Assembly: GCF_037392515.1 (NCBI RefSeq)
Contig: NC_090280.1
Location: 26,107,118 to 26,171,117 of the forward strand
Reading direction: 5' to 3'
Length of the DNA: 64,000 nucleotides
DNA from: Haliotis asinina
Lineage: Eukaryota; Mollusca; Gastropoda; Lepetellida; Haliotidae
The notes beneath the pieces are model-generated. The model saw only the letters and a program-made list of their open reading frames with translations. It was not told where the DNA came from and did no database searches. The first letter of the stretch is position 1. The number at the start of each line of letters is the position of its first letter. The translations under genes were made by a program, and so were the position numbers. This document shows, one piece after another, positions 10,936-60,112 of the stretch.

Positions 10936-11489
10936 TGTCTAGCAAAGCATAATGAAGTTGTACCTCCATAATAAATATCCTCATTCTTCATCTTCTTAAC
11001 TTCTAGCATGCCGACCAGAGAGGCAATGCGCCATGCCTGTTCAAATACCAAGATGCCACACATGTATGAACAGCAAGATGTCTTGTATGTTAGTCTTGTA
11101 TGAAAAACAAGATGCATAACCTATATGAACAGCAAGATGCCAAACGTTGTATGAACTCAAAAACACAACCTGCCAAGCCTCTATAAAGACTAGATGCTTA
11201 TAGTATATGAACAATAACATGCTAAACGTTATATACATTCCAAAAAATCAAACAACCGTTTGACAAAATACTTTCACAACTTAGTGTAATTCGACAAAAT
11301 AAAGGAGGTAGATTCCCTACTACGTATGAGGGAAGAAAATACTGTCATGAGAATGCTTAAGTAAACCGATCGCCTTTGGGGCGAATTATAAGCTATAATT
11401 GCTTCTCTCCCTCTGACCAGTGCACAACCTTGTAGATAAAAATACCAGTGTAACCAATGTAACCTTGGGATTCTCCTGTACTCCCAATT

Positions 11490-11705
11490 CAGCCTCCCAG
11501 GTCTTGTCTGGCAGCTGAAGATACGCAAGTGTCTTTCATCTTCACTCCCAGAAGCATTGCCTCCCTCCTCCATCTCTTCCACATCCATGGTCTTGTCCTG
11601 CAGCTGTAGATTCTCAAGGTTCATTCGTCTTCACTCCCAGAGGCACTGTCGTCTCTCCTCATCCTCCTGCTCTTCCACCTCCCATATCTTGTCCGGAAGC
11701 TGTGG
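11490..11705 (-). repeat. Three tandem copies of a 90-96 base block at the receptor gene's 3' end
   Basis: Read on the minus strand, blocks beginning CAGCTTCCGGACAAGATA, CAGCTGCAGGACAAGACC and CAGCTGCCAGACAAGACC follow one another. The first encodes the acidic C-terminus. The next lies past the stop and is open in the receptor's frame phase (DVEEMEEGG), and the third is partial. GGGAGTGAAG, which supplies the stop codon in copy 1, is kept in copy 2 but read in another frame. Confidence 0.7.
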
Positions 11706-11834
11706 CCCGGGGGTGAGGGCGAAGTCAATCTCTTCATATACCACAGGCTCCTCCCTTCGGTGTATGATTGGCTGGCCGTCGATCAGGGTAGGAGATACAA
11801 GGGCAAGGTCGGCGTAGGTCAGACCATCATCATT
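11631..11834 (-). CDS. Receptor exon 9: terminal exon with paired ITIMs
   Basis: The acceptor AAAATTTCAG starts 67 codons plus TGA. LTYADL and VVYEEI both satisfy the ITIM consensus, and their tyrosines are 26 residues apart, a spacing suited to a tandem SH2 protein. The end is strongly acidic (EVEEQEDEE). The last coding block is followed by two related but out-of-frame copies in the presumed 3' UTR (see the repeat at 11490-11705). Confidence 0.8.
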   Translation of the reverse strand, partial: NDDGLTYADLALVSPTLIDGQPIIHRREEPVVYEEIDFALTPGPQLPDKIWEVEEQEDEERRQCLWE

Positions 11835-14800
11835 CTGAAATTTTAACACAACTGCACTTACAAATGTCTAACTTTTCTATCAGGGGAATTTATTCCATGC
11901 CTGAACCCAAATCTGCACCTAGTACATTTACTGAACCAAGCAGTTCACTACTGCAGATAATGCTTTCTCTTTGTGTTCATAGCAACTTAGAGTCGTTTCG
12001 GCATTGTGTCAGCCAATCAGGGACGTCTCTTCCCGGAAGTTGGGAGGATATGTATAATAAACATACCGTTTCGCCACAGTTGTTGTATTCGGCAGCGACT
12101 GGTCCTGCATAGTCGATTAGAACCGCATTTTCCGACTGGAGACAGCAAACATATGTATGATCTCAACAATATGATGTACTGAACACATGATATCTTCACG
12201 CATCTCATGTATTACATTGCAGGTGTTGTTACATGACTTGTAATGTTAATGCCCATATAAGTCTTGCTTTTTTATGAGGAACCGAACTTACTGGTAACTT
12301 TTGTAAGTTTTTGCATTACTTAAATGAAGAAAAACATAATGTAACAACATTATAATTATTGATAGAAGTAATGGAAAATACTGTCCTTCTGCTAGTGATA
12401 CGTAAGTTCGTTCTTAATGAAAGAAAAACATTGTTTTAGAACTTTGTCTGTGGCCTCGATCTGACAGCTGCGAGCTTTTTGTATTTTTCTCTTTAAACTA
12501 CACCCACTGGTGAACTAAGTGATGCTGTTCTGTGTTGACATATGTTTTTGTTGTTCTGTGTTGACATATGTTTTATGATATGTTAGGTTTGCTTTACGCA
12601 ACACTCAGCAGTTGACGTCAATGAATGAACGAGAAAATCAATGGTTTACATAATGAGCATCGATCTTCGCAATTGCATTCATTATCTCGCGGGGCGGTGG
12701 GGTGGCCTAGTGGTTAAAGCGTTCGCTCCTCACGCCGAAGGCCCCGGTTCGATTATCCACATTAGTACAATGTGCGAAGTCCATTTCTGGAGTTCCCTCG
12801 TCGTGATGTTGCAGGAATATTGCTGAAAGCGGCGTAAAACCAAACTCACTCACTCACTCATCACCTTACGTTGCCTATTTCGTATCCATGTCTTTACGAC
12901 ACACTGACTGAATGGTTGTAGGAAAACAGTTCCAGTAAACACTTGCCGATGGCCCTGCGCCGGCATAAGCTCTGTTCATGAAGTGTCTGCATTGAGCCAT
13001 CTGTACCGTGGCATAAACATCAGAGACTGTGGAAAAGAGAACAAAGTAAATGAACTATAGACGAGATGTGTGAGATTGGTACTGAAACCTTGATGGGTCA
13101 TTCCGGGTCTGGCTTTTCTCTTCATTAAATATCAAGTAACTTGTAACTTAATATTTCAACATGTACATTTGGAAATTAATGAAAAACGGCCAAAAATGGC
13201 TTCTATAGGATGGCTGTCAAACTTCTGTAGGATGTCAAACTTACAGTAATCTCTTACAACAAAGACACCTAATAATAACGTGTCAAAAACAGCGAGTGTG
13301 TGTGTGAGTTTCGTTGAAATCTTCGTTAAAGTGGTTTTTTGTGACACTGACTACAGCTTGTGTTAAACACCTCTGGTCTGATGCTGACAAACAAAAAAAC
13401 ATATGTTGGGATTCGAACCCATAACCACAGTTTCTTTCACGACAAAGGAAAACCATTAAAACAGTGAATGTCAGTGCTCTAGACGGCACCTCCACCTGCA
13501 CATTGTCACAGAAAAGACAAACGGACACACCGCTGAAGTAAATAGTCAGGGGCTAAGATGCCGTCATGGGGTGTAGATGACGTCATGTGTAGATCACCTC
13601 AAGTGAGACTAGCTTTACGCCGCTTTTAGATATATTCCATCAATAACACGGCGAGGACGCCAGAAATGGTCTTCACTGAACCCATATGGAGAATCGAATC
13701 CATATCTTCAGCCTGACCTAAGGGGAGACCACGGACCAGAAGGATTGAATGATGGGCTATGCCTTCTCTTTTTGTTCACCTTGGCATACAGGTCTGTAGG
13801 TAGAAGTGTACAGTCAGGAACAAGTATTACAAGAAGAAATAATACCAATGGTTCTATAGGTGTTTGCACCGCACTCAGCAATATTCCAGCTATGACAGCG
13901 GGTTGTAACATCGAGTCTCGACCAGACAACCTCGTGTTTAACATCATGAGCATTGACTTCAGCAACTGGGACATGATGCCAGGCGTAAATGAAGCAGACA
14001 GTCTAACCGTTAATATTTTGTGAAGAGCATGTCAAATCTAGAATTTCATGGGGTAGATTACTTGTACTTGTAGATTCTTAAAGATCTACTTGAAAACATA
14101 TCTATTAAGTAACAGCTTATCATTCAATCACCAAATTCTAAACACTGCTTGTCACCCAATCCTAAACACTACTTGTCACCCAATCCTAAACACTGCTTGT
14201 CACCCAATCCTAAACACTACTTGTCACCCAATCCTAAACACTGCTTGTCACCCAATCCTAAGCACTGCTTGTCACCCAATCCTAAACACTGCTTGTCACC
14301 CAATCCTAAGCACTGCTTGTCACCCAATGCACTCTGTTTTTTCTAACATGTAGTTCAAGGTCACTTCATGTATCCCGGGGGTTCATCTTGTTTCTAATAT
14401 TGGAACATAATTCATTTTCCTTGCAAACATGTCCTATCTTCCGGGCAAGCCGGAAGATAAAAAGATTCCACGAATGGTTTTCAAATGATCAAGTTGATTA
14501 GAAACAAACATCAAGTACAAGGAATCTGATACAAATAAAAGAACGTGGCGTGTGGCGGTTGGGTACGGGTAGGGTTGGGAAGGGGAGAGGCGTGTGGTGG
14601 TTGGGTAGGATTGGGGATTGGGGTGGGCGTTGGGATGTCGAGTGTCGTTTGGGTGGAGGTGGGGGGTGGGGTTTGGTTTGGGATGGCAAGGGGGTGTTGG
14701 GTGGAGGTGGGGGTGGGGTTTGGGATGGCGCGTGGCGGTTGGGTTGAAGTGGGGGTTGGAGTGGCGTGTGGCACTTGAGTGGGAGTGGTTGTTGGGAGTT

Positions 14801-17800
14801 CCATTACTTGTAGGGTGTTGCTGCACTCATTTTAAACTGACCTTGAGTAATGACGAACAAAACTTCAACATGATATTTGTGAGCATAGCCTATTAAGTTT
14901 GATAAAAAAACCACCTTCCCCTGCTTCTTATTGCGCGACTTGATGTACAATAGCGTTCGCGTCATCTCCGGTACAATATTTAAATTGCATATATCACGCT
15001 ATGAATGACGACTGACTCTGTCATTATTACTAGACATATCTTATCCAAATGTCATAAGCACTAATTTCAATTATTCGTTTGTTTGTTGCGACATGTTGCA
15101 CTCAGCACACCGAACCCGGGTCATCCACATAACAGGGCGGCGGGGGTACTTACTAGCTAGAGGAGAGAGCGTTCGCTCGTTACGCCGAGAACGCGGGTTT
15201 GATTCATCACATGAGTACAATGTGTGAGACCCATTTCTGGTGTATCCCAGATATTCTTGGAATATCGACTCACCTTCCTCGGCCTGACGAAAAACCACTG
15301 GATTATCCCACGCCTCTCCAAACAATAAATGATGTGCAGTACGCTCATACAATCTCGACACCAGATTTCACATACGTACCACTGGGATCTTGAAATTGTG
15401 CTTCGTTGTCAGCCATACTGCGGTCTCCAGCTCTGAAAGACACGCCTGAGGTGAAGGATTAAGCAGTTCATATCATTACACGGCATACACCAGACTGCAA
15501 AGTTAAACTGCGAAATGATCAGCATTTAAATAGTTAACTGCCTACGCTGATATTACCCACCTGGGCCTACCTGGCGACAACAACTTGTGTGATTATCCTG
15601 AACTTGTAATGCGCACCTTGAAAGTACATACGACAATGCTAATCCAGTATCCTTTTCTTTCTTTTCAGTACCTTAACCTATGAGAGAAACACTGAACCTT
15701 ATTTTGTAGGAGTAACACTGTACCGTAGGTAGTAGAATACCTCTGTACCTTAACCTGTAGGAGTAACTCTGTACCTTAACTTGCAGGAGTAACTCTGTAC
15801 CGTACCTGGTGGGAGTAACTCTGTACCTTATCCCCTAGGAGTAACTCTGTACCTTAACATGTAAGAGTAACTCTGTAGGAGTGACTCTGCACCTTAACTC
15901 CGTTGCAGTACCTCTGTGCCTTAACTCTGTAGCAGTAACTCTGCACTTTAACCTGTAGGAGTAACTCTGTACCTTAACATATGAGAGTAACCCTGTACCG
16001 TAACTTGAAGGGCTAAACCTATACCTTAACTTGTACATATGTAAACGCTGTGGTCTTCTCATTGTTCTTGAAATGATATACCGTCAACAGTTATCTGCTA
16101 TTAGGTGTCCTCACCTGTACACTTTACCTCCTGAAACAGATAAAACATACTCTAGTGTAATCACTTCTCAGAGACAGCTCTGGCTACATCCCCTTTCCAA
16201 CCACTGTGCTGGTACAAAAAGGTGGATGACACCTTCACCATCCTAGATCCCTACCATGACCCTTCCACCCTCCCTGACCATCCCAACAAGCAGCACCTGC
16301 GCACCCAGTTCACGATGGAAATAGAAGACCAACAGAAACTACCGTTCCTAGATGTAGCCTTGCAGAATTCCCCCAACAACATTACCTTCTACGTCTACAG
16401 AAAACCCACCCACACCGACCAGTATATTCACTACCTCTCCAACCATCACCCCCAGATCAAACGTGCAATTGTCTCCACACTGATCAGACGAGCCAAATCT
16501 ATCTGCGATTCTGACCATCTCCAAATCGAAATAGACCATTTAAGAACTACATTCATCAACCTCAACGGCTATCCAAAACAACTTGTAGACAGAACCATAT
16601 CATCAACCCTGCAACAGCAAGAAGAACGCCAACCAAAACCTGAACCACCCCCAGTTAGAATTAACATTCCCTACCAAGATTAGCCACCACATCAGCCGAG
16701 TGCTCAAGAAAACGACCGTAATAGATGTGACCTTCCGGTCTGATAAAACACTGAAGACCACTGAAGGCCAATGGAAGATGTACACCAACCAAGACCACCC
16801 ACAGGCCTAGCGGCTGCATGTAGAAGCTTATGTGTGACTGTGGCAGCAGCTGTGTAGGAGAGACATCTAGCCCCATTGACATTAGGCTGAAAGAGCACAG
16901 AACGTCAGTAGAAAAATCAGATCTAAAGTCAGCCCTTTCTGAACATATTGTGAACAATCCGTCACACTCCACTGACTGGCAAGCAACAGCCATCATAGCA
17001 TCGAACATCCATGATTGGCGACAACGCAAAATTTCTGAAGCTATCAACATCAAGGGATTAGCCCCACAGATGAACAGAGACCAAGGGGTTTACCTACCCA
17101 AATGACTGGGAAATCAATTAGACGCAAGGTTTCACCAGTCACCTGCTAATCCACTGTTACAGCATCATCCCACCTTTAGTATCTTATCCAAGCTTTTGAA
17201 TATTGTTAGACTATCACCCCCCACCCCCCAACACCATGCCAACCTTTGTATATTTTAATTCTCTTATCATCTGCTATGTTTTAATTGTATACACATGCTT
17301 AAAATAATCACTCTGGCTTCATGTACATTTCTAGTATATATATCCTCTTTCACTGTTAGTTAGCATCCACCTGACGAAGGGACAAGAAATAGTCCAGAAA
17401 CATTGTGAAAACAATAAAGAAGAAGTTGACATCCATAACATTTTGTGGTATATAATCACTTCTAATGCAAATTATCATTCAGAAAGGATTCAAATGCACT
17501 TGTTGTAATTGTAGTAAAAGACTGACGAGACGAATAACGGGATATACGATAGCATTGTATTGTATCAACACAAAGACAATACCTTTCTTGATCCTGTTTC
17601 TTCGGAAAAAGAGGGCGACGATGACGACAATGAGGACAGAACAGACGACAGCCACAGGTACAATGGAAACGACACCAGATTCATTTAACCCACGTGCTGC
17701 AACATTCACGATATTAAATAGAAGCTTTCCTTTGATTCAATATACATACAACATATGGCGTAAGACCAAATGGACGCAAGTGTTGCCTATGTTAGGATTT

Positions 17801-20600
17801 ACTGGAACTGGTTTGTTTTTCGAATTACATAAATGATGTATGTAATAGAGTAAATATATAATACTTGGTTCTCCTCAGTTCAGATCTGATTTATTTTGCT
17901 TTTGGAGAATCTGAAAGTGAAGAATCACACTGACTTGATGTCATATCGTCAGATTAATAGTCAAGATTGACCTTCCGAGACATATTACAAGTTTGAATAA
18001 ATACGTGTTCAGAATCTCTGTGTGCTTTGAGAAATTTGAAGGGAGTAAAAACTGAAACAGTCATTACATGTCTCATTCAAATATAATTTTAAATGTCACA
18101 TAATATGTTACTAATGTATGTTTCCGGAATCTGTGGAGGCCTTACTGAGGACCTCAAGTGTCAGGTTCCGTGATGAACTCCCATGGCTGTTGTTGACGTG
18201 ACACGTGTACTGCCCAGACACAGACCCGTCTACAGCTGGTATAGACAATACAGCCTCCCTGTGTCCTGTAATCACCACCTGTCTGGATGTGTCCCACCAG
18301 GTTACAGTGCAGGCAGGGTTACAGTCAGCTGAACATCTCACTGTTACGGGTTTCCCTTCTTCTACTTCCAGCTTGCTCCTTGTGCCGTTAAAGTGTATCT
18401 GATCAGGTCCATCTGGAATATATAACGTGCGATGGTCAATAAGTCTACAGTTTAACACGAACTTACAACGGAAATTGTACTCCACTCGAATGCTGATCTA
18501 TTCACTTTTATAAAATACATGAAAATAACAGGTTGCCTCCGTGTGGTGTCCACAAAGGAAGGTGTGTGTGTCTCTGGGTGGGAGGTAGGGGTGTGATGGT
18601 TAGTAAAGGGAAACACATTCAAATTACTTTCCTGCTCACTTAGCGTCTATGATCCTAGTTAAGGAACACCAAATAGAATAGTGATGTTACACGCAGTTGG
18701 CATGATCAAGTAATCAATCGCGACCTTGATCATCACAGTCAACCCATTTTATGCCATGACAGTAATTTGGAATAAATACGGTCATGCACTGTGACGACAA
18801 CAGGTATGACGTCTAAATCAGCATCACCTAACGACACAGACTTACGACTATAGAGCTATAGCTGAACCGTGAGTAATAAACCGAACTCTGAAATGTATTG
18901 TGTCAGTGGCCATTGACGACGCCAAGTCAAACAATTGCTTCCGGTAGGTGACACTGTCGTCACATGTTCATTGACGACGAGACGTGTTTCAGGTCGTATT
19001 GTGGTCGAGTCTGGGGAGGTTTTTAACTGACTATTTAGGTGCCCAAGAAGGACAATGAAACGTTAATGAGAGAAAGTTTTGTCTTGTGTGAACATCTACA
19101 TACAATCTCAAGAAGAATATACTCTCAGTTTACACTTTCCCCACTTCACAGAATATGAACAAGTGTCCAGGAAACCATCAGTATATCAAATCATCAAAGG
19201 GAATCAAATGCTACTTAAAACATATTTGAAAACAGTATGTCCGTGAAGTATTATCACGTTGAGTTTTGAAATTTCCAGAAATCCCCCCCCACCCCTACAT
19301 AATACTCTTTGAACGTGAGACACAGGCCTTTATTACTATCACATTCAAGTTTGAATGGTCCATAATTAATATCAGTAGGACTTTCATGACACTTACTTAT
19401 CCTGATACTGTCTTCACGTTACATCAAGATCGACATTGTTATATTAGTTCCAAGGTAACCAGTTAAAACCCCTTCGGTATTGTGAACTCATGTTTTGATT
19501 TATGCAAATAGTTTAATATCCTTGTGTTGACCTTTGTGAGTCCTTGCATTTACATTCTCTAAAATCATAACATAACCTGACACATTCTTCTCCATATGAT
19601 CAGATTCATTCAATCTATATCATGTGTTGTTAGTTTTGTGCTGTTCTTCTCTATCTGAGTTGAGAGGTCGGTACACGCTATTGCTCATAAAACAGATATC
19701 TAGATGAACAAGAGCGATCTGACATAATTTTAAAGAATTAATGTGTTTTGCGACACAAGAAACCGTAAAGCCTTTGAAACTGAGAGCTTTCATCGCAGAT
19801 TTTGGCTATGTCGTCTTTAATTTCGATCCGAACTACAAAGGCACTATTTTGATAATGATTCAGGATATAAACGTTCTATGTGTCCATTGCTTCTATGCAA
19901 AGGTTCCTATCCCGTAAGGTAGTTTCTTACTCACAGAGGACATTCAGTACATGTCTGGAACTCCAGTCAGACACCAGCCCCTCCTCCACAGCCTTGCAAC
20001 TGTAGATGTCTCCCTGGTTCTCTCTGCTGACGTGGGTTATTGTCAGGTCATCTCCACTTGTAGGAGACTCATCACCAGATTCTAGCAGGGTAGGAGACTC
20101 ATCACCAGATTCTAGCAGGGTCCTGTCCCTCCTCCAGATGTAGGTCATGGCCAGTAAGGGGTGGTCCGTGGTTAGACTCCGGGAGGAGAAGGAGCATGTG
20201 AGGGTGACATTCTCACCTGATACAGGTGAGGCAGGTCCGGTGATGGTAGGTGTGGATGGCTTCTCTGTGAACAAATATTAAGATATGAATCCATTGCGAC
20301 CATTATGCGAGTGCAAATAAACAAGAATTTTAAAAAAAACTACTACATTTTTATCAATGGAGTAGTCACTGTTATTGTCTCACCAATACTCCTAACCATT
20401 CTGTCGATTAAATATAATAGTTACTGCCAATCTGCTGCCTCCTTGGTCTAGTGGATATATCATTTACCCGGAGAGAGGAGTACAAGAGACTTGACCGTTG
20501 TTCATAACAAACGACTGTTGGGGCTCATGACTATCTCTGTTAAACTGCAAATGACAGGTCTCTCACATTCTCTCTCTCGCTCTCTCTCTCACTCTCTCTG

Positions 20601-20655
<55 letters not shown>

Positions 20656-21315
20656 TTATCTTATACCTCATGAATTATCCGGCTTTGAAAGGGTATACTG
20701 GATCAATTACAGTTTAGTTTAGGTGCATTCAGACATTGACACATATTTCTGTTAACCATATTCTGTACTTACGCACTACAACGAGGACCTGTCTACACCC
20801 AGTAACTTTCTGTCCAATGCTTCCCTGACAGTAGTAAGTGCCAGCGTCCTGTACAGTAACATTGTAGATGTTAAACCTCAGCTGTCCGGTCTGTGATGGT
20901 GAGTCCTCCCCGGTGTATCTGATCCTGGTCCTGTAGCCGGTGTGACTATTGTTGAGTACCACAACACGGTGTGACAAGGGTACGACCACAAGCAGGTTCT
21001 TAGATACCGAGCCATTCACCCACACGAAGTATACGAAGCTGACATTCTCTGGGTTCATGGTCATGGTAACATCTTCACCAACACGTGTAACAGTGCATGG
21101 GTATGCAGTTGTCATAGAGGCAAGACCTGCACGCAAAACAAAAATTCGTCATTAAAACTATTTTTACAGTGCATAGAAATACTTAAGAAAATAATTTCGA
21201 TATTTTCACCTGACAAATAGAGAATCCACAAATATAATCTCCAAAACACAACGCAAGCCAGAAACATGACCACCAACGATTTCAGTTCATACTGAGACAT
21301 CACTAACTTCAGCAT
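11631..21315 (-). CDS. Ig-superfamily receptor with three Ig domains, one membrane helix and an ITIM-bearing tail (9 exons)
   Basis: Seen: nine minus-strand exons, 21315-21210, 21126-20773, 20264-19935, 18412-18146, 17696-17583, 15430-15380, 13026-12947, 12135-12067 and 11834-11631. All have GT..AG borders except intron 7, which uses GC. The phases run 1,1,1,1,1,1,0,0 and every join matches. The total is 1575 bases, 524 residues plus TGA. Order: hydrophobic leader 1-35, V-type Ig 36-153, Ig 154-263, Ig 264-352, helix near 358-382 followed by RRNRIKK, tail 391-524. Tyrosine motifs are DVYATV (Y412), DYAGPV (Y443), EYNN (Y451), LTYADL (Y464) and VVYEEI (Y490). Known: [SILV]xYxx[ILV] recruits SHP-type phosphatases, pYEEI suits Src-family SH2 domains and pYxN suits Grb2. 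Inferred: a plasma-membrane recognition receptor, probably inhibitory, of immune or adhesion type. The ligand is unknown. The start could instead be Met6. UTRs were not mapped. Confidence 0.85.
12067..12135 (-). CDS. Receptor exon 8: 69-base tail exon with two tyrosines
   Basis: The acceptor TTTGCTGTCTCCAG and donor GTATGT bound 23 codons, phase 0-0, encoding SENAVLIDYAGPVAAEYNN and CGET. The EYNN site fits the pYxN preference of Grb2-type SH2 domains. A symmetric exon with a length divisible by three could be skipped in frame. Confidence 0.68.
12691..12860 (+). mobile_element. tRNA-derived SINE, family A (best preserved copy)
   Basis: It has the full head GGGGCGGTGGGGTGGCCTAG .. TGGTTAAAGCGTTCGCTC, B-box CCGGTTCGATTATCC, GATGTTGCAGGAATATTGCT, AAAGCGGCGTAAAACC and an (ACTC)4 tail. 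It lies in receptor intron 7, on the opposite strand to the gene. Confidence 0.88.
12947..13026 (-). CDS. Receptor exon 7: tail exon with the YATV motif
   Basis: The acceptor CTTTTCCACAG opens an 80-base exon encoding VSDVYATVQMAQ and later RAYAGAGPS. It ends at TCG|GCAAGT, a GC-type donor with otherwise good consensus, in phase 0. Phase 0 is exactly what exon 8 requires, and no GT donor in that phase is nearby. Y412 sits in YxxV but lacks an aliphatic residue at -2, so it is ITIM-like only. Confidence 0.6.
13395..13510 (-). mobile_element. tRNA-like SINE head, family C
   Basis: On the minus strand, TGCCGTCTAGAGCACTG (A-box region) and GGGTTCGAATCCCAA (perfect B-box core) lie about 75 bases apart, with no acceptor-stem pairing. 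It is likely a Pol III-derived SINE rather than a tRNA gene. Confidence 0.4.
13603..13725 (-). mobile_element. tRNA-derived SINE, family A, reverse
   Basis: On the minus strand it reads GGATTCGATTCTCCATATGG .. CATTTCTGGCGTCCTCGCC .. AAAGCGGCGTAAAGC. Its ends are worn. Confidence 0.7.
13860..13985 (-). mobile_element. SINE, family B, partial, reverse
   Basis: The plus-strand text GCACTCAGCAATATTCCAGC, GTCTCGACCAGACAACC and AACATCATGAGCATTGACTT is the reverse complement of the 3' two-thirds of the family B element at 7111-7304. Confidence 0.65.
14130..14335. repeat. Minisatellite, 24-base unit, about 8 copies
   Basis: The unit CCTAAACACTGCTTGTCACCCAAT has ACTACTTG and AAGCACTG variants. It lies in receptor intron 6. 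The period is divisible by three, so several frames stay open, which is not evidence of coding. Confidence 0.93.
14545..14812 (+). repeat. G-rich minisatellite with quadruplex potential
   Basis: Long purine/GT-rich tract with many runs of three to six G (GGGTGGAGGTGGGGGGTGGGG). A diverged unit of about 55 bases (GGCGTGTGGCGGTTGGGT) recurs. The plus strand has many G4-forming combinations. It lies in intron 6 of the minus-strand receptor. Confidence 0.8.
15130..15275 (+). mobile_element. tRNA-derived SINE, family A, diverged
   Basis: GAGCGTTCGCTCGTTACGCC, GCGGGTTTGATTCATCACAT and AGTACAATGTGTGAGACCCA match the SINE head and middle. The 3' tail is degraded. It lies about 100 bases from receptor exon 6. 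Confidence 0.7.
15380..15430 (-). CDS. Receptor exon 6: 51-base juxtamembrane exon
   Basis: The acceptor TTTCAGAG and donor GTACGT bound 51 bases, exactly 17 codons, phase 1-1. It encodes AGDRSMADNEAQFQDPS with the partner bases. The length is a multiple of three with equal phases, so the exon could be skipped without shifting frame. It contains no tyrosine. An alternative acceptor two bases upstream would shift the frame. It was chosen by phase fit, without transcript support. Confidence 0.6.
15667..16033. repeat. Minisatellite, unit about 26 bases
   Basis: About 14 diverged units of AGTAACTCTGTACCTTAACC + TGTAGG. It lies in receptor intron 5, just upstream of the Penelope-like element. Confidence 0.9.
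16165..17455 (+). mobile_element. Penelope-like retroelement, 5'-truncated
   Basis: The first frame carries the end of a reverse transcriptase: KVDDTFTIL (the xDD motif), LPFLDVAL, VYRKPTHTDQYIHY and NGYPKQLVDR, all hallmarks of Penelope-like RT. The second (16830-17104) carries a GIY-YIG-type endonuclease remnant with CDCGSSCVGETS and RLKEHRTSV. The two are in different frames with stops between, so the copy is dead. The 3' end carries CTGACGA .. GAAAC and ATAAAGAAGAAGTTGACATC, like the ends at 55568 and 63140. It sits antisense in intron 5 of the receptor gene. Confidence 0.8.
17583..17696 (-). CDS. Receptor exon 5: transmembrane segment
   Basis: A phase 1-1 exon of 38 codons: a short stalk (RGLNESG), a run of about 24 hydrophobic residues ending VLIVVIVALFF, and the basic stop-transfer cluster RRNRIKK. 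This fixes a type I topology with Ig domains outside and the tyrosine motifs inside. No charged residue lies in the helix, so pairing with an ITAM adaptor is not indicated. Confidence 0.85.
18146..18412 (-). CDS. Receptor exon 4: Ig domain 3
   Basis: A phase 1-1 exon of 89 codons. It has canonical Cys (VTVRC), Trp-Trp (VTWW), the F-strand signature SGQYTC, and an extra close cysteine pattern DCNPAC, which is common in C2-type domains of sialoadhesin-like and invertebrate Ig receptors. It opens with GPDQIHFNGT after the Tyr made at the junction and ends with NLTLEVL before the membrane exon. The donor is GTAAGG. Confidence 0.88.
18486..19930. other. Receptor intron 3 interior, nothing recognised
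   Basis: It spans most of the intron between the Ig 2 and Ig 3 exons. No repeat family or alternative Ig exon was recognised. Confidence 0.5.
19935..20264 (-). CDS. Receptor exon 3: Ig domain 2 with a 10-residue internal duplication
   Basis: A phase 1-1 exon of 110 codons with canonical B-strand LTC, C-strand Trp (IWRR) and F-strand Cys (DIYSC). Between the C and E strands the segment LLESGDESPT occurs twice in tandem from an exact-looking 30-base direct duplication at 20060-20119. The exon ends in the linker NVLY (completed by exon 4), which typically joins consecutive Ig domains. The donor is GTGAGT. Confidence 0.88.
20571..20655. repeat. (CT)n microsatellite
   Basis: Nearly pure TCTCTC with a few interruptions and a short CACACA end, in the intron between Ig 1 and Ig 2. 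Confidence 0.95.
20773..21126 (-). CDS. Receptor exon 2: V-type Ig domain 1
   Basis: One phase 1-1 exon of 118 codons. Ig landmarks seen are the C-strand Trp in YFVWVNG and the F-strand signature DAGTYYC. The B-strand position, where Cys is expected (VTMTM), has no Cys. Other cysteines lie at YPC near the start and TGC near the G strand, so the disulphide pairing must differ from the usual one. Several NxS/T sites are present. The donor is GTAAGT. The domain probably forms the membrane-distal ligand-binding head. Confidence 0.85.
21210..21315 (-). CDS. Receptor exon 1: signal peptide
   Basis: The exon encodes a leader rich in Leu, Val, Phe and Trp (KSLVVMFLACVVF, then one Arg, then LYLWILYLS) and ends in phase 1 at a CAG|GTGAAA donor. 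Two in-frame Met codons, residues 1 and 6, could start it. The Arg inside the hydrophobic run is slightly unusual for a leader. The single-base remainder joins exon 2 as a Gly codon. Confidence 0.75.
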
Positions 21316-25399: not shown

Positions 25400-28300
25400 C
25401 TGACCATTCACCACATGGAGGACAAGTTCTACATTCCCTGCTCATATTGAACAAGAACCACCGCTCCTGACAACAGGAACCATTCTGCCTTGCCAACACC
25501 CACCTCCTTCAAACATCCAAGTAAGACCATCCAAACCCAATACAGGACATATTGCCAAGTGCCAATTGTGCTGGGACTGTACCACATCACTCTCCTCGTT
25601 GGTGAGCATTTGGTTTGTCATTGTTGATTATCTTCTACATGTCAAATTGTTACATAATCATTACATAATGTCGTTCTATCAACTCAAGCTCATAAATGCC
25701 AGTGACCACCCGCCACTGCTTTTTCCTGAAATAGCTTATGAGACAAATCCCTACCAACCTATCACCCCTATAAATCATTCCTCCCCTTCACATGACGCTT
25801 CTCCCCTTATTGTGTCACATTTGATGAAACTGGGCCTAACACATTTTTATCATCTAAAGCAACAGGAGCGTTAGCCGGCAAAGTAATTGTAACGTTGGTT
25901 GGGTTGAGTAATCTATAAGGAACCTGAGAGAAACCTCCCCAAGCCTCACCACTAATTAAGGAAGCAGACTCCGTAGTGCCAACTTCCCTTTCCTCCCACA
26001 CGTGTCCAGATCAGCCACAATATAGATAATGACGCCAGATGAATGCTGTGCCAGAGACACAGCAGAAACCTCCTACTCCTCTTCTGTCTCAAACTCTCAA
26101 TAACATTAACCTAGCGCATAGCACAGTGGCAGTTACCATCAGTAACACCTCATTTAAGGCACCGGTAGATACGAGTGCAAGCGCAAGTTATATTGGTCTT
26201 TCCCGCTTCAACAACCTTGGGGGTCTGATAATTTTTCCCTTACAACCAGCTGGTCCAGATGGCAGAAAGTTTAATGTGCCTGGGTCAGCTGACTTAGTTG
26301 TGCTCATTGCCAATCTCAAACTATCCCATACGTTCTGTGTTGTGGAAGACGTCTTGCTTGGCCTTGACTTCCTAAAAACATTCAGCTTCAGTAGACTATA
26401 ACAAACACTGTCTTTACCACGGTTTAGCCGAAACCCCTTTCCTTAGTCCTCCAACAGAACATATCTTAGTCAGATGCCCCTCGCATGTTTGTATCCCTCC
26501 ATGTTCGGAGTTGTGTTTGCAATTAGACATCCCAATTAACACCCCAGGAAGCTCCCCTGGTATGCTGTAGCCTCAGTGACCCAGACTCATCGGGTCATAG
26601 GTATTCATTGTGTAGTGACGTGTGTCGCCTCTCAGGTTCCTTATAGATTACTCAACCCAACCAACTTTACAATTACTTTGCCGGCGTACGCTCCTGTTGC
26701 TATGTTTGAGTTCCTTGAGCCAGACTTGGCCTTGGGTCCACTTAGGGACACCTTATCTGAACAGTTTGAGACTATCAACCGTGTATCTTGACTGACAGTT
26801 CGCCCACGACTGACTTGACTCACCAGACATTGGAACTGGACATTGACCTTTCCTCAGCTGATCTTTCTACCAAACAGAAACATACCTTGTTATCATTCAT
26901 TGGTCAACACAGTGACTGCTTCGCTAAGGACATCATTAAACTAGGTATGACTCACATGTTCTCTCATTCCATAGACACTGGAGATAGCCAGCCTCTTTGT
27001 AAACGTCCATACTCGGTAAACCCCACACATAGACATGCAATGGACACACACATCAAGGACATGTTAGAAAATGACATAACTGAGCCTTCCTTTTCCCCCT
27101 TGGTCTGCTCCTGTCCTGTCAGTTAAAAAGAAAGCGTTTGCTTTTTTTAACAAATAATCACGGGTGCAGCATTATCATATCGGTAATATTGATGAATCCT
27201 TAATGTCACTAGGAAATAGTCATACTCAGATTTTCTCATCTCTTGACAAGATGAGCGGCTATCATCAGATTCCTTTGTACCCGAACAGTCGGCAGAAAAC
27301 TGCTTTTATTGCCGCTGGTCACGGCCAGTTCTATTTCAAAGTCATGCCCTTTGGACTGGTCAGTGCACCAAGTTGTTTTTCCTTCTTCATGTCCTCCTCA
27401 TGACCTGTTGATTCACAGCCAGTCATTTGATGAATACCTTCACCAAATAGAAGCAGTGTTCAACAAATTTCGAGAAGCTGGGATAAATCTTAACCCTTCA
27501 AAATGCAAATTTGCGGTGACCATTTGGCTTTACAATTCCTGAGATCAATCAAGGATGCCACAGGAAAGTTGGGTCGCTGGTCTCTCCTCCTGAGCCTGTA
27601 TGATTTTGACACGCGGTATGTGCCTGGCCCTAAACATGGCAAAGCGGATGGTATGAGCAGTCCCCTATGATGATGATGATGAGAGTCATCTAGGAATACG
27701 TACCATTGCTACACCTAACACTGCCCTGTTGACTGATTATGAAACCGACCTGCACCGAACCCCATTTGAATATTGCAAAGCAGTTATCGTCTCGGGGACA
27801 CAACGAGCTGAATTACAACAGCTAAATGAAGCATTTGCAGATATCATCCGTTATCTCACTGATTAGGTACTCCCGGATGATGACAAAGCAGCCTGCTGTG
27901 TGCTACTACAAGCCCCGGATTATGGCATGGTCGAGGATTTGCTTATCCACCATTACACTCCACAGGACCAAGGGGGGCTACCCAAAACGGTGTTACCGCC
28001 AGCTGTACATACCTAAACCATTACATCATGATATAATGAAAGCTTATCATGATAGCTTTCTGTCATCGCACCTTGGCGTCTACAAATGTTATTCATCCAT
28101 TTGGCTTAAGTACTATTGGCCTGATATGTACAACTTTGTCAAGATGTAGATTGGGTCATGTACTGATAGTCAAGTGGCAAAGCAGTATCTCCACTACCGA
28201 AGGGCACTACCACTACCCTTTGGTGATGTTTTTGACCGATGGTCAATTGAAATCATTGGCAAACTCATCACTGTGGAAGAATTTCAATACGTCAATACGT

Positions 28301-29300
28301 CCTAGTATGTGTTGATTCAGCATCCCGCTGGTGCGAGGCATTCCCACTCAAATTAAAGGGTAGCAAGGAAGTCGCATCTGTTCTATTTGACAACATCATT
28401 TGCAGATACTCAAGTGCTCGGGCGATCCTCACGGACGGGAGCAAGGAGATGACATCACAACTGATGACGGAACTATGTCATATATTTGACGTGAAACACC
28501 TCAAAACATCACCATTTCATGCTCAGTGTAACGCTGCAGTTGAACGCATGAATTCTGTGATCTCACAGTCATTCAGAGCATATTGTGAGGATGCTAAGGG
28601 GGCATGGCCCTACATTCTCCCAAACATAATGACTGGTTATTGGTTAAGTCCCGCCATTTATTCTACTGGCTCAAGACACTGCTAAACAGAATGCCCAGAC
28701 TGCCCAAGATTCCTACAAAGCGAGGCATGACAATAAGGCCCAAGCTCCCACCTTCACTCTGGGTCAGAAAGTGTGGTTGAAGAAAGGAAACCTTCAAGCC
28801 CATCTCAGTCGCAAATTACAACCCCAGTAGGATGGACCATACTATATTGTATTTGCCTAGGATTGCCATATACTTGATTTGCCAACTACCTCACGAACAA
28901 ACCCCTCAAAGCACCGATCCATTCAAATTGCTTAAGGCCGTACGCTTACAACGGAAAGGTAACCCAAATCCCCCTTAGTTACCAATATAAAGCGACACAG
29001 TCCCACAAATCAGATTAACATGTGCTTTTCTACATTAACCATACCATTGCATTACACACCACATGATGGACTTTCCCTATTACACAAACAACGCGTGATT
29101 TACGAAAGGGTAACCCATTCCATGATGGAACTTACACTGGTGCATCGCGTATATTAAAAGGCCAGCTGACTCGAGGGAGCTAGTGAAGTGATTATGAAAA
29201 GACGTCTTGAAGATACTTGTATATATAATTTGTGGAAATGTGTGTACCAGCAAAGCCGAAAGATGAGTGAATGTCCCATGGTTCATTAAGACTTTATTTC
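25400..29300 (+). mobile_element. Ty3/gypsy-type LTR retroelement fossil
   Basis: Recognisable pol parts occur in order on the plus strand: a protease-like region near 26130-26400, reverse transcriptase near 26800-27550 (SLDKMSGYHQIPL, VMPFGLVSAP), RNase H remnants near 27560-27670, and integrase near 28010-28690 (DGSKEMTSQLM, NAAVERMNSV). A short part occurs twice in opposite orientation (about 25870-25940 and 26628-26700), showing rearrangement. The region 29060-29300 has an LTR-like look with a TATA-type and A-rich 3' signals, but paired LTRs were not established. The element is broken by roughly ten or more lesions and is old. Confidence 0.8.
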
Positions 29301-42700: not shown

Positions 42701-42759
42701 GTTAGAGCAGGAGCTATCAGACTCACTACACCTTATCACCGTCAATCGCGGCAACCTCC

Positions 42760-44490
42760 TTGTTTGATCAAGAATGTGGCAAACTTAAGTCTGTAAAATA
42801 CAGACTTTTAAACTGTTTCAGAAAGCATAAATGCAATTCTAACCTCGATTCCTATTTGAATGCAAAACGCAATTTTAAAAAATGTTGCGAATTAAAAAAA
42901 GATAATTATTTAGCCAAAGCTGCAGATGATATTAAAATAGCAGCAAGAAATCCTGACTGTAAGATGTTTTGGAGCACGTTAAAACGCTATCTTCAGAAAA
43001 CAGTTCCCACAGATAATATTTCTCCGTACCAATGGTATCATTACTTCAAAGGTCTCCTTTCCTGTAGAGATGCAAAACACCTTTCAGATTTTGATAAATC
43101 AGTGTACGATTTCGTCTCAACGCATAACTGTGACGATTGTGAAGAGCTTTCATTCTCGCATGATGTTTTGTCAACTCCAATTACCGAAGAGGAGGTAATA
43201 AAATCTATAAATGAATTGAAATGGAATAAGGCAGCGGGACATGACGGTATCCCTCCCTCATTTTACAAATGTACTTGTACTTCTTTAGTGTCATATTTGA
43301 AAGATTTATTTAATGTAGTTCTTGACAGTGGTAAATTCCCATCGGTTTGGAATATGGGCATGATTGTCCCGTTATTCAAGTCTGGAAGTGTATCAGAACC
43401 ATGCAACTATCGTGGAATATCTCTTCTAAATATTTCTGGAAAATTATTTGCTAATATATTAGAAAAGCATTTACGTGCCTGGGTTGATCTAAACGAACTG
43501 CTTGACGAGGCTCAAGCTGGTTTTAGACCCAATTATAGTACAACTGATAATTTATTTATATTACAGTCATTATGTACAAAGTACCTCTGCAGACCTAAAG
43601 GGAGATTCTATTGCGCTTTCATCGACTTTAAGAAAGCCTTTGATTTTGTTTACCGTAAGAAATTGCTATTTATGTTACATACCAAAGGATGCCAGGGCAA
43701 AATGTATAATATTTTAAGAAACGTGTATGACTCTGTTGCAGCCTGTGTTAGAACTCATTCAGGCAACACTGAATCGTTTAATACTTCCGCTGGTGTGCGA
43801 CAAGGCTGTGTATTAAGCCCCGTACTCTTCATATTCTTTATTAATGAACTTGTAGATGATATGTATAAATCATGTAATAATGGAATATTTGTTACTCCCC
43901 AAATCAAAGATTTACTTTTACTTCTCTTTGCAGATGATATTGTTATGTTTTCATTTATGGTAAACGGACTGCAGAGACAGATAGATATTCTTCAAACATT
44001 TTGTGACACATGGGGACTAGAGTTGAATATGGAAAAATCTAATATAGTTGTCTTTAGAAATGGGGGTATAGTGGCACATTCGGAAAAATGGCTATTCCGG
44101 GGCAAAAGTATGAATGTTGTTTCATATTATAAATATTTGGGTCTTTTATTCTCTAGCCGATTAAATTGGTCCATGACATCTAAAACTCTTGCAGCACAAG
44201 CTAAGAAGGCATTATTTCCCATTTTCAAACTCTTTAAGGCTAATAAATTTATTTCATTTGACTCAGCTTGCTTACTTTTCGACACTAAAATAGCACCAAT
44301 ATTGTTATATGGATCTGAAATTTGGGGAGTAAACTACTTGTTTGGACCTGAAAAATATATTAGGGTCCTTAATGATAAGTCCCTTTTAAGAAATTTTTGT
44401 AAATTTATAATTTCTCTACATGCCTTAAAAATACAGCGTTATAGAAGAGATAAAAATACACTAGAAGATTTATCATGTTCTCAAATCTAA
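42760..44490 (+). CDS. LINE ORF2 reverse transcriptase (CR1-like clade)
   Basis: A 576-codon open frame. RT blocks in order: WNKAAGHDGIPPSFYK (about 160), NYRGISLLNISGK, AQAGFRPNYSTTDNLF, FIDFKKAFDFV, VRQGCVLSPVLF, and LLFADDIVMF with the catalytic FADD (about 395). YKYLGLLFSSRLNW and ILLYGSEIWG in the thumb region follow. The C-terminal zinc-finger segment seen in the relics at 366 and 33960 is absent, so this copy probably lost a 3' coding piece. It synthesises cDNA from LINE RNA at the nicked target. The domain reads intact, but the element lacks a working endonuclease. Confidence 0.9.
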   Translation: MFDQECGKLKSVKYRLLNCFRKHKCNSNLDSYLNAKRNFKKCCELKKDNYLAKAADDIKIAARNPDCKMFWSTLKRYLQKTVPTDNISPYQWYHYFKGLLSCRDAKHLSDFDKSVYDFVSTHNCDDCEELSFSHDVLSTPITEEEVIKSINELKWNKAAGHDGIPPSFYKCTCTSLVSYLKDLFNVVLDSGKFPSVWNMGMIVPLFKSGSVSEPCNYRGISLLNISGKLFANILEKHLRAWVDLNELLDEAQAGFRPNYSTTDNLFILQSLCTKYLCRPKGRFYCAFIDFKKAFDFVYRKKLLFMLHTKGCQGKMYNILRNVYDSVAACVRTHSGNTESFNTSAGVRQGCVLSPVLFIFFINELVDDMYKSCNNGIFVTPQIKDLLLLLFADDIVMFSFMVNGLQRQIDILQTFCDTWGLELNMEKSNIVVFRNGGIVAHSEKWLFRGKSMNVVSYYKYLGLLFSSRLNWSMTSKTLAAQAKKALFPIFKLFKANKFISFDSACLLFDTKIAPILLYGSEIWGVNYLFGPEKYIRVLNDKSLLRNFCKFIISLHALKIQRYRRDKNTLEDLSCSQI

Positions 44491-50169: not shown

Positions 50170-53100
50170 TCAATGGTCATAACCCATTATGGGGAAGTCC
50201 TGATACCAACAGTAAAGGGAAAGTTCTTGAAGAATTTATATCTGATAATAATTTATGTATATTCAATGATGGCTCTGACACATATTTGCATCCTGCAACG
50301 GGAACATATTCGTCTTTAGACCTGTCACTCACTGATTCAAACGTTTATAATGAGTTTGAATGGTCAGTCCATAATGATCTTTGTGGTAGTGACCATTTTC
50401 CTACAGTACTTACAGCAATTAACCCTTCCGATGATCCGCCTGTAACAAGATGGAATTTTTCAAAGGCTAATTGGCCATTATTTCAGGCCACCTGCCTTAT
50501 GGAACTTAAACCAGACCTTTTCATGGATGTCCCTGATCCAATTAAAATGTTCTCTGACAAACTAAAACATATAGCTGATGAAACTATTCCTAAGTCCTCT
50601 GTAAATCCGCACATCCGTAAACCATGGTTTAATGATGAATGCAAACAGGCTAGGAAGAAGAGGAAGAAAGCAGAGAAATATTTTCGTCTTCATCCCACTG
50701 TTCATAACTTAAATAATGTAAAAATCAGTTACGCTAAAGCTCGACGAACGTTTAAACACATTAAACGTCATACTTGGAAAAATTACGTTTCCAAAATAAA
50801 TTCCCGTACTCCTATGTCAAGGGTATGGAATATGATCCAAAAAATTAAAGGCAAGGGTTTCAAATCCAGCAGTATTCAGCATCTCAAAAATGATAATAAC
50901 ATACTAACTGAAAAATCTGATATTGCAAACAAGTTGGGTGAAACTTTGGCTAAACATTCATCCTCCTCAAATTATCATCCAAAATTCTTTTCAAATACAC
51001 CAAGAGAAGAAACCAGTAAATTTTAAATCTGATAATGGTGAAGATTATAATGAGGTATTTTCATTACATGAACTTCATACTGCGCTATCACAGGCTCACG
51101 ATACTGCAACAGGGCCTGATGATATCCATTACCAACTCTTAAAACACTTGCCTGAATCATGTCTCGAAACGTTACTTGGCATTTTTGACCATATTTGGAT
51201 AACACAACATTTTCCCCCTTCATGGCGAAAAGCCATAGTTGTTCCTATTCCAAAGCCTGGGAGGGATCATACAGATCCATCAAATTTCCGACCTATTTCC
51301 TTAACTAGCTGTGTTTGCAAAACCATGGAGCGAATGGTAAATAATCGCTTAGTTTGGTTTTTGGAAACCAACAGTCTGATTACTGATATACAATGTGGTT
51401 TTCGTAAAAACCGAAGCACAACTGACCACTTGGTTCGTTTGGAATCATTTGTAAAAAATTCTTTCATTAAAAAACAACATGCAGTTTCAATCTTTTTTGA
51501 TCTCGAAAAAGCATATGATACTACTTGGAATTTTGAAAGATTTACATTCTTTTGGGTTGAGAGGTCGCTTGCCTCAGTTTATATCCAATTTCTTAAATGA
51601 CAGACAGTTTCAAGTACGTGTGGGAACAACCCTCTCAGACTACATGCATCAAGATCAGGGTGTTCCACAAGGCAGTATTTTGTCTGTGACTTTATTTAGT
51701 ATTAAAATCAATAGTCTTTCTAAGGTTTTAAGTGATTCAGTAGATGGATCACTATTTGTGGATGATTTTAATGTTTCTTGTAGAGGTAGAAATATGCATA
51801 CAATAGAGAGGCAATTACAAATTTGTCTCAATAAAATTGAAAAATGGTCTCTTGAAAACGGGTTTAAATTTTCGATAACAAAAACAAATTGTTTGCATTT
51901 CTGCAGAAAGTATAAACCGCATAAAGATCCAGAACTATTTTTAAATGGCACCCCCATCAAAGTAGTAAAGGAGGCCAGGTTCTTGGGTCTTATTTTCGAC
52001 TCACATCTAACTTTTCTACCCCACATTAAATCCCTTAAAACTAAATGCCTGAAGGCACTTGATCTGTTAAAATTTGTTTCCAATTCAAAGTGGGGAGGAG
52101 ACCAAACTACCCTACTCCACTTATACAGATCTCTCATCCGTTCGAAACTTGATTACGGCTCCATCGTTTATGGTGGAGCCTGTAAAAACAACCTCAAAAT
52201 ACTTGATTCTATCCACCATCAAGGTCTAAGACTATGTCTTGGGTCATTTAGAACTTCTCCTATTGACAGTCTTTACGTCGAGGCCGATGAGCCATCTCTT
52301 ACTCAACGACGTATAAAACTCTCCTTACAGTATATAACAAAACTGTATTCTAATGAGGCCAACCCTGCGTTTAACTGTGTTTTTAATCCTCTTTATGTGG
52401 ATTTATACAATAAAAAGACTTCTCTTGTTCCGCCTCTGGGACTTAGAGTAAAACCTTTTCTGTCTGCTTGCGGCATTGAGCTAGAAAATATATCTCCTTC
52501 CCGTTTACTTTCGTCTCCACCTTGGCATTTAGTTAGACCCGAAGTTGACCTAACACTGACGAGGTTTAAAAAATCAGAAACAAATGAATTACAATATAAA
52601 CAAGAATATAATCAATTAAAAAGTAACTATAATACATACAAATCTTTATTTACAGATGGGTCCAAGGATGGTGGCGCAGTGACTTGTGCCACTGTCATTG
52701 GATCCAGAACAATATCTTTCAGATTACCAGATAATAGTTCTATTTTCACAGCAGAAGCAAACGCCATATTAACGGCTCTTAAATATATTCAAAGACATCC
52801 TACACATAAACAGTATATTATCTATTCCGATTCTCTTTCTTGCCTCCAGGCAATTAAAAACCTCTCATGTAAACATCCACTTGTAATTGAAATTATTGAA
52901 TTGCATAATGATCTTGCCACTGGCCAATACGACATCGTCTTTTGTTGGTTACCCAGCCACGTAGGCATTTCCGGGAACACAATGGCTAATCTTGCTGCCA
53001 AGGCAGCTCTCAACAAATCTGTGACACCACTTCTTATTCCATACTCTGATTATAAAGCTACAATTAGATCGTATATCCGTGATCTGATGCAATAGAGGTG

Positions 53101-57330: not shown

Positions 57331-57479
57331 ATGCCAACAACCAATCAGAGGTGGTAACTTGTTGCATTGGCGACGATGCTAAGTTTCCCTGGACAGGTGA
57401 CGTTCCTCCATTCATTGTCATCGAATGGTATTTTAACAATACAGTGATTGCACAGACGTACCGTGGATCTTTGTCACAG
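57331..57479 (+). CDS. Second Ig gene: exon with the first half of a V-type domain
   Basis: A pyrimidine-rich acceptor (TTCCAAACTTGCAG) opens in phase 1 and TCACAG|GTAAGT closes in phase 0. The peptide includes SEVVTCCIGDD, the B-strand Cys, then VIEWYFNNTVIAQ, the C-strand Trp region. The leader exon should lie upstream and was not identified. An unspliced open frame running through the acceptor is treated as chance. The strand is opposite to the receptor at 11.6-21.3 kb. Confidence 0.7.
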
Positions 57480-58119
57480 GTAAGTAAACATCTTGAAACA
57501 TAATGATATTAATATCTATTTTTCCATATATCCCATGATTCATAATGATTGCCACGAAAAAAGGTTGCACCATATACATTGACTGGCACATTTAGGAAAG
57601 GGGTAGTTGATTTCCTGCGATCAAATTGAGTCACACTGGTTTGTGATTTCATGGAAGTTTTATGCAGACAGACATGTTCAGTATGTCTGCGAGTATGTCA
57701 CGAGTTGTCTGCGCTAATAGGAATAATTAGACGCTAAATATAACATTCTATATATGTATTATCTGATTTACAGTTTTGATGGCATAAATAATGTTTGAGT
57801 CATTATTGTAATGCAACGACAGAAACAAAATGCATTGAAATTTATCAACGGAAACAGCAGCCACGACATGTCATGATGTAATGTATTGTTTCCAAATATA
57901 TAGGGTCAAGGGTAAATAGACGGCCAGTGATGGAAGACAACATGACTTTGAGTATCGAATCCACTGCATGGATTTACAAAGCTGCTTCAGACTGTGGAGA
58001 CATATGTTTCATCTACCTGCCACCATGTAAATATTGGATACACACTATTGATCGATGGCATAGGGCATGTATTGGTGCCCAAACTCCCAAACATTTGGCA
58101 AAATTGGTAAATCGTGAGC

Positions 58120-58253
58120 GCGTGGCTGAGTTAGTGTGGTTCTACGCTGCATTTAGCAATATTCCAGCAATATCAGGAGGATACCAGAAACGGGATTCAA
58201 CCTTGTACCCATCGAATAAATGTCTGCGGCGTGACGACGTTTAACCACTGGCC
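58120..58253 (-). mobile_element. tRNA-derived SINE, family A, reverse, intronic
   Basis: The plus text TTTAGCAATATTCCAGCAAT, GATACCAGAAACGGGATTC and ACGTTTAACCACTGGCCTA is the reverse complement of the SINE. It lies in the intron that splits the V domain, about 75 bases before the downstream exon. Confidence 0.75.
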
Positions 58254-58326
58254 TAAATCCAACCCCATCCTCTACCCTTGTAGACGTTTGCCTCCCTTCA
58301 AATGCATTTCACTCTTTCTTTTACAG

Positions 58327-58495: not shown

Positions 58496-60112
<1,617 letters not shown>

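Follow-up and report, generated by a model that had tools for sequence, protein, structure and literature searches.

The locus analyzed here raises the question of whether a mollusc immunoglobulin (Ig) receptor gene with two immunoreceptor tyrosine-based inhibitory motifs (ITIMs) in its tail encodes an inhibitory receptor and, if so, in what kind of gene family it is embedded. The gene is located on the minus strand (positions 21315 to 11631) of a stretch of 64,000 nucleotides of the abalone Haliotis asinina, referred to below as the window (C1:26107118-26171117 in a 1.14-Gb assembly of 159 contigs). Six genome matches to the Pfam Egg_lysin family, each above the cut-off, agree with an abalone origin, egg lysin not being known outside abalone and close vetigastropods; the 14 control genomes yielded no such match, a result of little weight because the controls known by name are prokaryotes. 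We consider it probable (roughly 0.7) that the product is an inhibitory receptor of the ITIM/SHP2 type, belonging to a two-armed multigene cluster that resembles the paired receptors. This reading is built on direct observations of the gene structure, the cluster, the segregation of the tail, the constraint on the tail, and the SHP2-like exons of the same genome.

Conservation of the paired ITIMs

The predicted cytoplasmic tail contains two matches to the pattern [ILVS]xYxx[ILV], which was used to define an ITIM. These are LTYADL and VVYEEI, the tyrosines of which are 26 residues apart. Both are encoded in exon 9 and the pair is therefore independent of any splice join within the tail. The preliminary description of this DNA had listed the same pair, together with the sites YATV and YNN (the latter, in exon 8, we take to be a Grb2-type site), and all of them were found in the tail. 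An immunoreceptor tyrosine-based activation motif (ITAM) consists of two Yxx[LI] sequences some 6-12 residues apart; an ITAM receptor was rejected, as the spacing of 26 residues lies outside this range.

When the residues of a 148-aa tail model (2 residues longer than the final tail) were shuffled 100,000 times, an ITIM pair 15-40 residues apart arose in 0.52% of cases and a pair plus YEEI in 0.002%; the corresponding values were 0.53% and 0.006% for a model of 126 aa, and 0.73% and 0.005% for one of 160 aa. The motif statistics alone are modest, because some such pair is held by 5 of the 414 open reading frames of at least 50 aa in the window (the receptor's own included), and it is conservation that carries the case.

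A search of the genome with exon 9 yielded 26 tail copies (26 of 26 candidates scored), and the spacing of the two tyrosines is 26 residues in every one. ITIM 1 is intact in 21 copies, ITIM 2 in 22 and both in 21. A distant paralogue (L047, C1:2963690-2964000) is among those with both motifs, in the form of LIYANL and VVYEEI; its comparison with the window tail gave a dS of 0.67 and a dN/dS (the ratio of nonsynonymous to synonymous substitution rates) of 0.29 over 57 codons. This distant relative, at C1:2.94-3.03 Mb, is 70% identical in the tail, 59-60% in the third Ig domain (Ig3) and 33% in the V domain, which makes the tail the best conserved part seen. Relatives lacking the tyrosine motifs had been named in advance as grounds for abandoning the proposal; the paralogues of this one genome, L047 included, mostly retain both.

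The claim that the second motif is a Src-type YEEI site found no support as a general property, since YEEI is present in 15 of the 26 copies (that of the window included) and YEQI in the other 11; both ITIMs and YEEI occur together in 12. The proposal that one tail serves both kinase and phosphatase is, because of this replacement, limited at best to some members: YEEI may add kinase docking in the copies that carry it, but not family-wide.

Structure of the receptor gene

The gene consists of nine exons with usable splice sites (Table 1), all found at the positions first proposed and with matching phases (introns 1-6 in phase 1, introns 7-8 in phase 0). The proposed length of 524 residues is obtained from the second in-frame ATG, and 529 from the first. 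The shorter form is favoured because exon 1 of the paralogue L036 has a stop codon between the positions of the two ATGs. L036 is the only one of 20 paralogue loci in which a convincing homologue of exon 1 was found (78%); many of the fetched 10-kb pieces may stop short of it.

The exon borders stood with one correction, as exon 7 has no well-scoring phase-0 GT donor and the join between exons 7 and 8 is the single weak one in the model. The window reads TCG/GCAAGT (the slash marks the exon end) where all 20 fetched paralogue loci (L017-L036) read TCG/GTAAGT, and for this reason the end of exon 7 was placed there; intron 7 is thus probably a GC-AG intron. Exon 7 ends at GT 13007, 12941 and 12905 were dropped, since the GT of the paralogues aligns with the GC site of the window. 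When the protein of 531 aa predicted with a provisional end of exon 7 was searched against Pfam, a V-set domain was detected at 3.8e-9 and several Ig domains, the best of them at 1.4e-19. All 20 fetched loci contain exons 5-9, joined at identical junctions, which argues that the gene model is real and not a product of motif chance.

Several features of the coding sequence are recorded here in their own right. Within the second Ig domain (Ig2), 30 bases are tandemly duplicated in frame (window 20061-20120; TLLESGDESP twice). The B-strand stretch of the V domain (DVTMTM) contains no Cys, and none of the 20 V rows has one there; the F-strand Cys (YYC) is followed 11 residues later by a second Cys (TGC) in 19 of the 20 rows, and an F-G disulphide in a V domain would be unusual. 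A single-sequence structure prediction of the V exon had a mean pLDDT of 33 and was not used as evidence. Positions 11477-11703 are occupied by degenerate tandem repeats at spacings of 89-96, one family with three units of 42 nt and another with two of 72 nt; they cover the coding end and the 3' flank and repeat the stretch coding for QLPDK.

Table 1. Features of the receptor gene (positions in the window) and location of the paralogues that have lost both ITIMs
Feature	Position	Strand	Remarks
Exon 1: start codon and hydrophobic signal sequence	21210..21315	-	first ATG 21315, second in-frame ATG 21300
Exon 2: V-set Ig domain (Ig1)	20773..21126	-	Pfam; 76 near-full genome copies
Exon 3: second Ig domain (Ig2)	19935..20264	-	carries the 30-base tandem duplication
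Exon 4: third Ig domain (Ig3), I-set like	18146..18412	-	
Exon 5: transmembrane (TM) segment	17583..17696	-	no charged residue inside the membrane segment
Exon 6: juxtamembrane tail	15380..15445	-	23 genome copies, all arm B
Exon 7: tail with YATV (13004-13015)	12947..13026	-	25 genome copies, all arm B
GC splice donor of intron 7	12945..12946	-	GT in 20/20 fetched paralogue loci
Exon 8: tail with LIDYAG and YNN site (12079-12087)	12067..12135	-	
Exon 9: last coding exon, both ITIMs and stop codon	11631..11834	-	26 genome copies
ITIM 1, LTYADL	11805..11822	-	exon 9
ITIM 2 and Src-type site, VVYEEI	11727..11744	-	exon 9
ITIM-losing subclade L036, L048-L050	C1:27103341, 26884682, 25222650, 26559823		

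A cluster with two arms

Six-frame searches of the genome, in which the best candidates were scored and the counts are therefore lower bounds, revealed at least 151 exon matches to Ig2 plus Ig3 (best 150 of 366 candidates scored) and at least 116 to the V exon (150 of 156). From the latter, 76 near-full V exons (at least 97 of 117 residues covered) were picked by hand; shorter pieces were excluded, as were a match at C1:2.94 Mb and one at 3.03 Mb that are only 33% identical. All 76 are located on one chromosome (C1), in two groups. Arm A (22.3-23.6 Mb) has 54 of them, at C1:22.35-23.43 Mb, with a median spacing of 18 kb and 51 in minus orientation; arm B (24.2-27.2 Mb) has the other 22, at C1:24.25-27.16 Mb, with a median spacing of 128 kb and 8 in minus orientation. 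The gene, for which the preliminary description recognized no named orthologue, is one of a family of roughly 80 members, a figure that counts exons of one assembly and not verified genes, and the larger arm of this family is without the ITIM tail. Near-identical units of the cluster could in part be unmerged haplotypes.

The tail exons segregate with the arms. Of the exon 9 copies, 25 are in arm B and one is at C1:2.96 Mb, and exons 6 and 7 are confined to arm B (48 matches from 50 candidates; Table 1). All 22 V exons of arm B are followed by an exon 9 within 20 kb downstream, a single exon 9 being common to two of them; none of the 54 V exons of arm A is.

A search with an arm-A TM exon gave at least 77 matches. 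Of these, 55 belong to the arm-A type, with 54 situated in arm A itself and one mapping to 28.07 Mb; the remaining 22 come from arm B, a lower bound, as the window's own TM exon is not among them. The open frame of the arm-A exon extends over 53-54 codons in 54 of the 55 copies and over 67 in the other, which would fit either a short tail or a stop codon soon after the beginning of the following intron. In two stretches of 9-10 kb below arm-A TM exons (L045, L046), nothing clearly homologous to exons 6-9 was detected. A candidate arm-A tail exon of L046 (SVYMKL...EYVTV) was dropped, as only its first 22 residues were matched in L045 and no good acceptor was seen. Both stretches also contain a second TM-like exon (L045 5781-5653, L046 5901-5773), which is open and has a phase-1 acceptor and donor; in L045 its distance from the arm-A TM exon above it is 3.8 kb. 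It is possibly an alternative TM exon.

The outer domains are shared between the arms. Identity to the V domain of the window averages 79.6% in arm A (54 exons; range 61-87) and 80.4% among the 21 others of arm B (range 72-85), so that both arms are equally like the window's V (Mann-Whitney p 0.55). When a tree was built from V rows of both arms (15 from B, 5 from A), the window copy grouped with L036 (arm B) and L040 (arm A) with a support of 100/100, and a single clade of the arm-A rows was rejected (p-AU 0.00012, in a small tree); mean amino acid identity of these rows is 81.2% across the arms, compared with 82.4% inside arm A and 80.6% inside arm B. The tree is a biased sample, because its arm-A rows (5 of 54) were fetched for ranking in the top eight by similarity to the V of the window, and weak support prevails among its inner branches, with 3 of 17 starred. 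The comparison of all 76 exons is free of this sampling bias and agrees with the tree.

The cluster thus combines what is expected of a paired family: its genes lie together and closely resemble one another in the outer domains, and some have an ITIM tail while others lack one. As arm A shares the kinds of outer domain but lacks the ITIM tail, the two arms are likely to be paired receptors.

Selection and possible exon exchange

Pooled pairwise dN/dS values with a codon bootstrap were calculated for the window copy and L017-L036. They were 0.86 for the V exon (0.61-1.27; 15 genes, 6 left out because the exon was partial, absent or cut), 1.05 for Ig2 (0.69-1.58; 18 genes, 3 dropped as under 55% identical), 0.64 for Ig3 (0.35-1.14; 19 genes, 2 dropped as partial) and 0.35 for the tail, exons 6-9 (0.21-0.64; 21 genes), with exon 9 alone at 0.47 (0.23-0.97). 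For close pairs, dN/dS was 1.14 in the V exon (74 pairs, dN > dS in 54) and 0.45 in exon 9 (177 pairs, dN > dS in 20).

In three loci (L017, L018 and L020), Ig2 is only 42-44% like that of the window, while Ig3 is 89-91% alike. A divergent Ig2 beside a similar Ig3 points to exon exchange.

Exons of a SHP2-like phosphatase in the same genome

An ITIM receptor calls for a tandem-SH2 phosphatase in the same genome, and SHP2-like exons were found by searches with the SH2 and protein tyrosine phosphatase (PTP) families (for PTP, the best 150 of 465 candidates were scored). The SH2 exons map to C16:47015735-47017130; a PTP exon at C16:47022581 shares their strand, all within 7 kb, and we infer that they belong to one gene and transcript. 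The N-SH2 domain, joined from two exons, was the part compared with PDB, where it matched the N-SH2 domain of PTPN11 (1.5e-45) and a PTPN6 chain (4.5e-44); the second SH2 exon and the PTP exon were translated only. PTP domain exons are abundant and clustered elsewhere in the genome (C7:0.9-2.5 and 10-11.5 Mb, C9:46-47 Mb; at least 160 matches), which suggests a large PTP expansion in the abalone.

Proposed function and alternative explanations

In our proposal, the product is a type I membrane receptor, built of a V domain, two further Ig domains, a TM segment and a long tail; it belongs to a multigene family of the abalone and is probably expressed in haemocytes. A ligand would bind the fast-changing outer Ig domains, a Src-family kinase would phosphorylate both tail tyrosines, and a SHP2-like phosphatase would dock on the two ITIMs via its two SH2 domains and damp an activating signal in the same cell. 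The two arms would then be likely to work as paired receptors for one class of ligands. Of the immune-receptor-like inhibitory signalling suggested in the preliminary description, the mollusc Ig receptor, its paired ITIMs, the constraint on the tail and the SHP2-like exons have been found, while the signalling itself is what we infer from them.

Several observations weigh against this reading. Loss of one or both ITIMs is seen in five of the 26 tail copies (LTYADP), and a subclade of four (L036, L048-L050) has lost the defining residue of both, with LTYADP and AVYE[EQ]I (A at position -2), the tyrosines and their spacing being kept. In L032 and L033 exon 9 has a stop codon downstream of both motifs, and L051 departs from the family sequence soon past them. 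No listed V exon lies upstream of 4 of the 25 arm-B copies of exon 9, and upstream of exon 9 in L017 and L020 there is a V-like exon that is only about 30% alike. The TM exon, placed between the V exon and the tail, has a dN/dS of 1.01 (0.48-2.89; 21 genes). The dN/dS contrast is support and not proof: there is a slight overlap (0.61-0.64) of the bootstrap ranges for V and tail, the pooled pairs lack independence, and gene conversion is likely. The arm-A TM exons that were read (3 of 55: L004, L005 and L008), each of which finishes with a usable donor, have no charged membrane residue for an adaptor. The pairing of the arms is putative, as no tail exon was identified in the two 9-10 kb stretches below arm-A TM exons. 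Moreover, YEEI, YNN and YATV could recruit activators, the GC donor of the window may splice less well, and the same YxxI/L/V motifs can serve endocytosis.

Among the alternatives, the one that survives best, although we regard it as unlikely, is an activating or adhesion receptor, the tail of which would mainly recruit a Src-family kinase (via YEEI), Grb2 (via YNN) and further SH2 proteins, with no net inhibition; such a receptor might serve the adhesion of haemocytes or act in nerve cells. Both YEEI and YNN are present in the window tail, the nearest PDB sequences include adhesion molecules, and ITIM-bearing receptors are generally known to be able to activate as well. However, YEQI replaces YEEI in 11 of the 26 copies, whereas 22 copies retain ITIM 2 and 21 retain ITIM 1, one N of YNN is missing from exon 8 in 5 of 21 copies, and clusters this large are, as a matter of general knowledge, rare for adhesion genes.

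Less likely still, the copy in the window may be in decay, so that no complete receptor is expressed from this member of the cluster. This would fit the GC donor at exon 7 and the stop codons in coding exons of other members (exon 9 of L032 and L033, exon 1 of L036), but all nine exons of the window are open, the other junctions are usable, and GC donors with an otherwise good consensus are generally known to be used in animals. Finally, it is improbable that the motifs act mainly as YxxI/L/V sorting signals (recognized by AP-2) of a scavenger receptor that internalizes its ligands, since, although YADL, YEEI and YATV all match that pattern, V is present at position -2 of ITIM 2 in 22 of the 26 copies and the 26-residue spacing is invariant, and position -2 matters for the SH2 domains of SHP, not for AP-2.

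The reading of the gene as an ITIM/SHP2-type inhibitory receptor may be extended, more tentatively and at somewhat less than even odds, to that of a convergent complex of the KIR/LILR kind: about 80 receptors in two arms of one chromosome, with diversifying outer domains that the arms share or exchange, an ITIM/SHP2 tail restricted to one arm, and a subclade of that arm (4 of 26 tail copies) in which both ITIMs have lost their defining residue. The loss in these four copies is as expected if inhibitory receptors repeatedly turn non-inhibitory.

Other features of the window

A second Ig gene is located on the plus strand at 57340-58500, with one Ig domain spread over two exons (when joined, Pfam I-set 5e-7); a tblastn search with the receptor as query gave no match to it. 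Pieces of retroelements, comprising an integrase core (Pfam rve) and two reverse transcriptases, are present at 28251-28685, 42706-44490 and 51455-53095.

Comparison with known receptors

The best sequence match in PDB over the three Ig domains is myelin-associated glycoprotein (MAG), and domains of CD22 also match. SIRP-alpha and the Siglecs (MAG, CD22) share the layout of V plus C2-type domains with the abalone receptor, and SIRP-alpha and CD22 carry paired SHP-binding ITIMs. Membership of the Siglecs was rejected, as the window V has Q at the position aligned with the R of MAG YYFRGDL, which is presumably the sialic-acid contact.

Inhibitory Ig receptors of molluscs are already known and are not new. 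The motif of the oyster receptors IgIT and CgIgIT2 is reportedly an ITIM, and IgIT is said to signal through it together with a SHP2 homologue. Papers on IgIT and CgIgIT2 of the oyster (Crassostrea gigas) are cited in PMC11999971 under titles with "inhibits" or "inhibitory receptor", although the text of that article labels the motif of CgIgIT2 an ITAM. For CgSiglec-1, which has two I-set domains, blockade raised apoptosis and phagocytosis (PMC5877582). Like the abalone gene product, the oyster proteins are molluscan Ig receptors of the membrane, and an inhibitory role has been reported for them; the accessible parts of these two sources make no mention of a clustered family with two arms.

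According to PMC12065747, the fester co-receptor (FcoR) family of the tunicate Botryllus schlosseri (520-610 aa, a V and two C2 Ig domains) is encoded in the clustered fuhc locus, with tails bearing an ITIM, a hemITAM or a core tyrosine motif; such motifs are also cited there for allorecognition candidates of Hydractinia. FcoR and the abalone family thus have in common V plus C2-type Ig receptors with ITIM tails in a clustered locus. Unlike the abalone receptor, FcoR has a sushi domain and paired fester partners, and its type of tail differs by allele or splice form at some loci, whereas in the abalone it differs by cluster arm.

Among vertebrates, PMC2413239 gives at least 75 paired FcR-like genes for Xenopus tropicalis and over a hundred CHIRs for chicken. 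From the same source, KIR/LILR, CHIR and XFL are, like the abalone family, large Ig families with high turnover, and their inhibitory and activating members resemble each other in the outer regions; vertebrate activating members use a TM adaptor module, in contrast to the three abalone arm-A TM segments read, which have no membrane charge. Direct descent from vertebrate paired receptors is not implied.

No literature on a paired-receptor cluster in abalone or other molluscs was found in titles and the beginnings of abstracts, a search that left most subscription journals uncovered, and no paper on an abalone ITIM receptor was found by title. The cluster looks like a molluscan counterpart of the vertebrate paired immune receptors. 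Paired inhibitory and non-inhibitory receptors are a hallmark of the control of vertebrate lymphocytes and natural killer cells, and a parallel has been reported in a tunicate. If the reading is true, a mollusc cluster with a constrained ITIM tail in one arm and outer domains common to both would make the independent evolution of such systems testable, and its members would be candidate receptors for self- or pathogen recognition in a farmed animal that has no antibodies.

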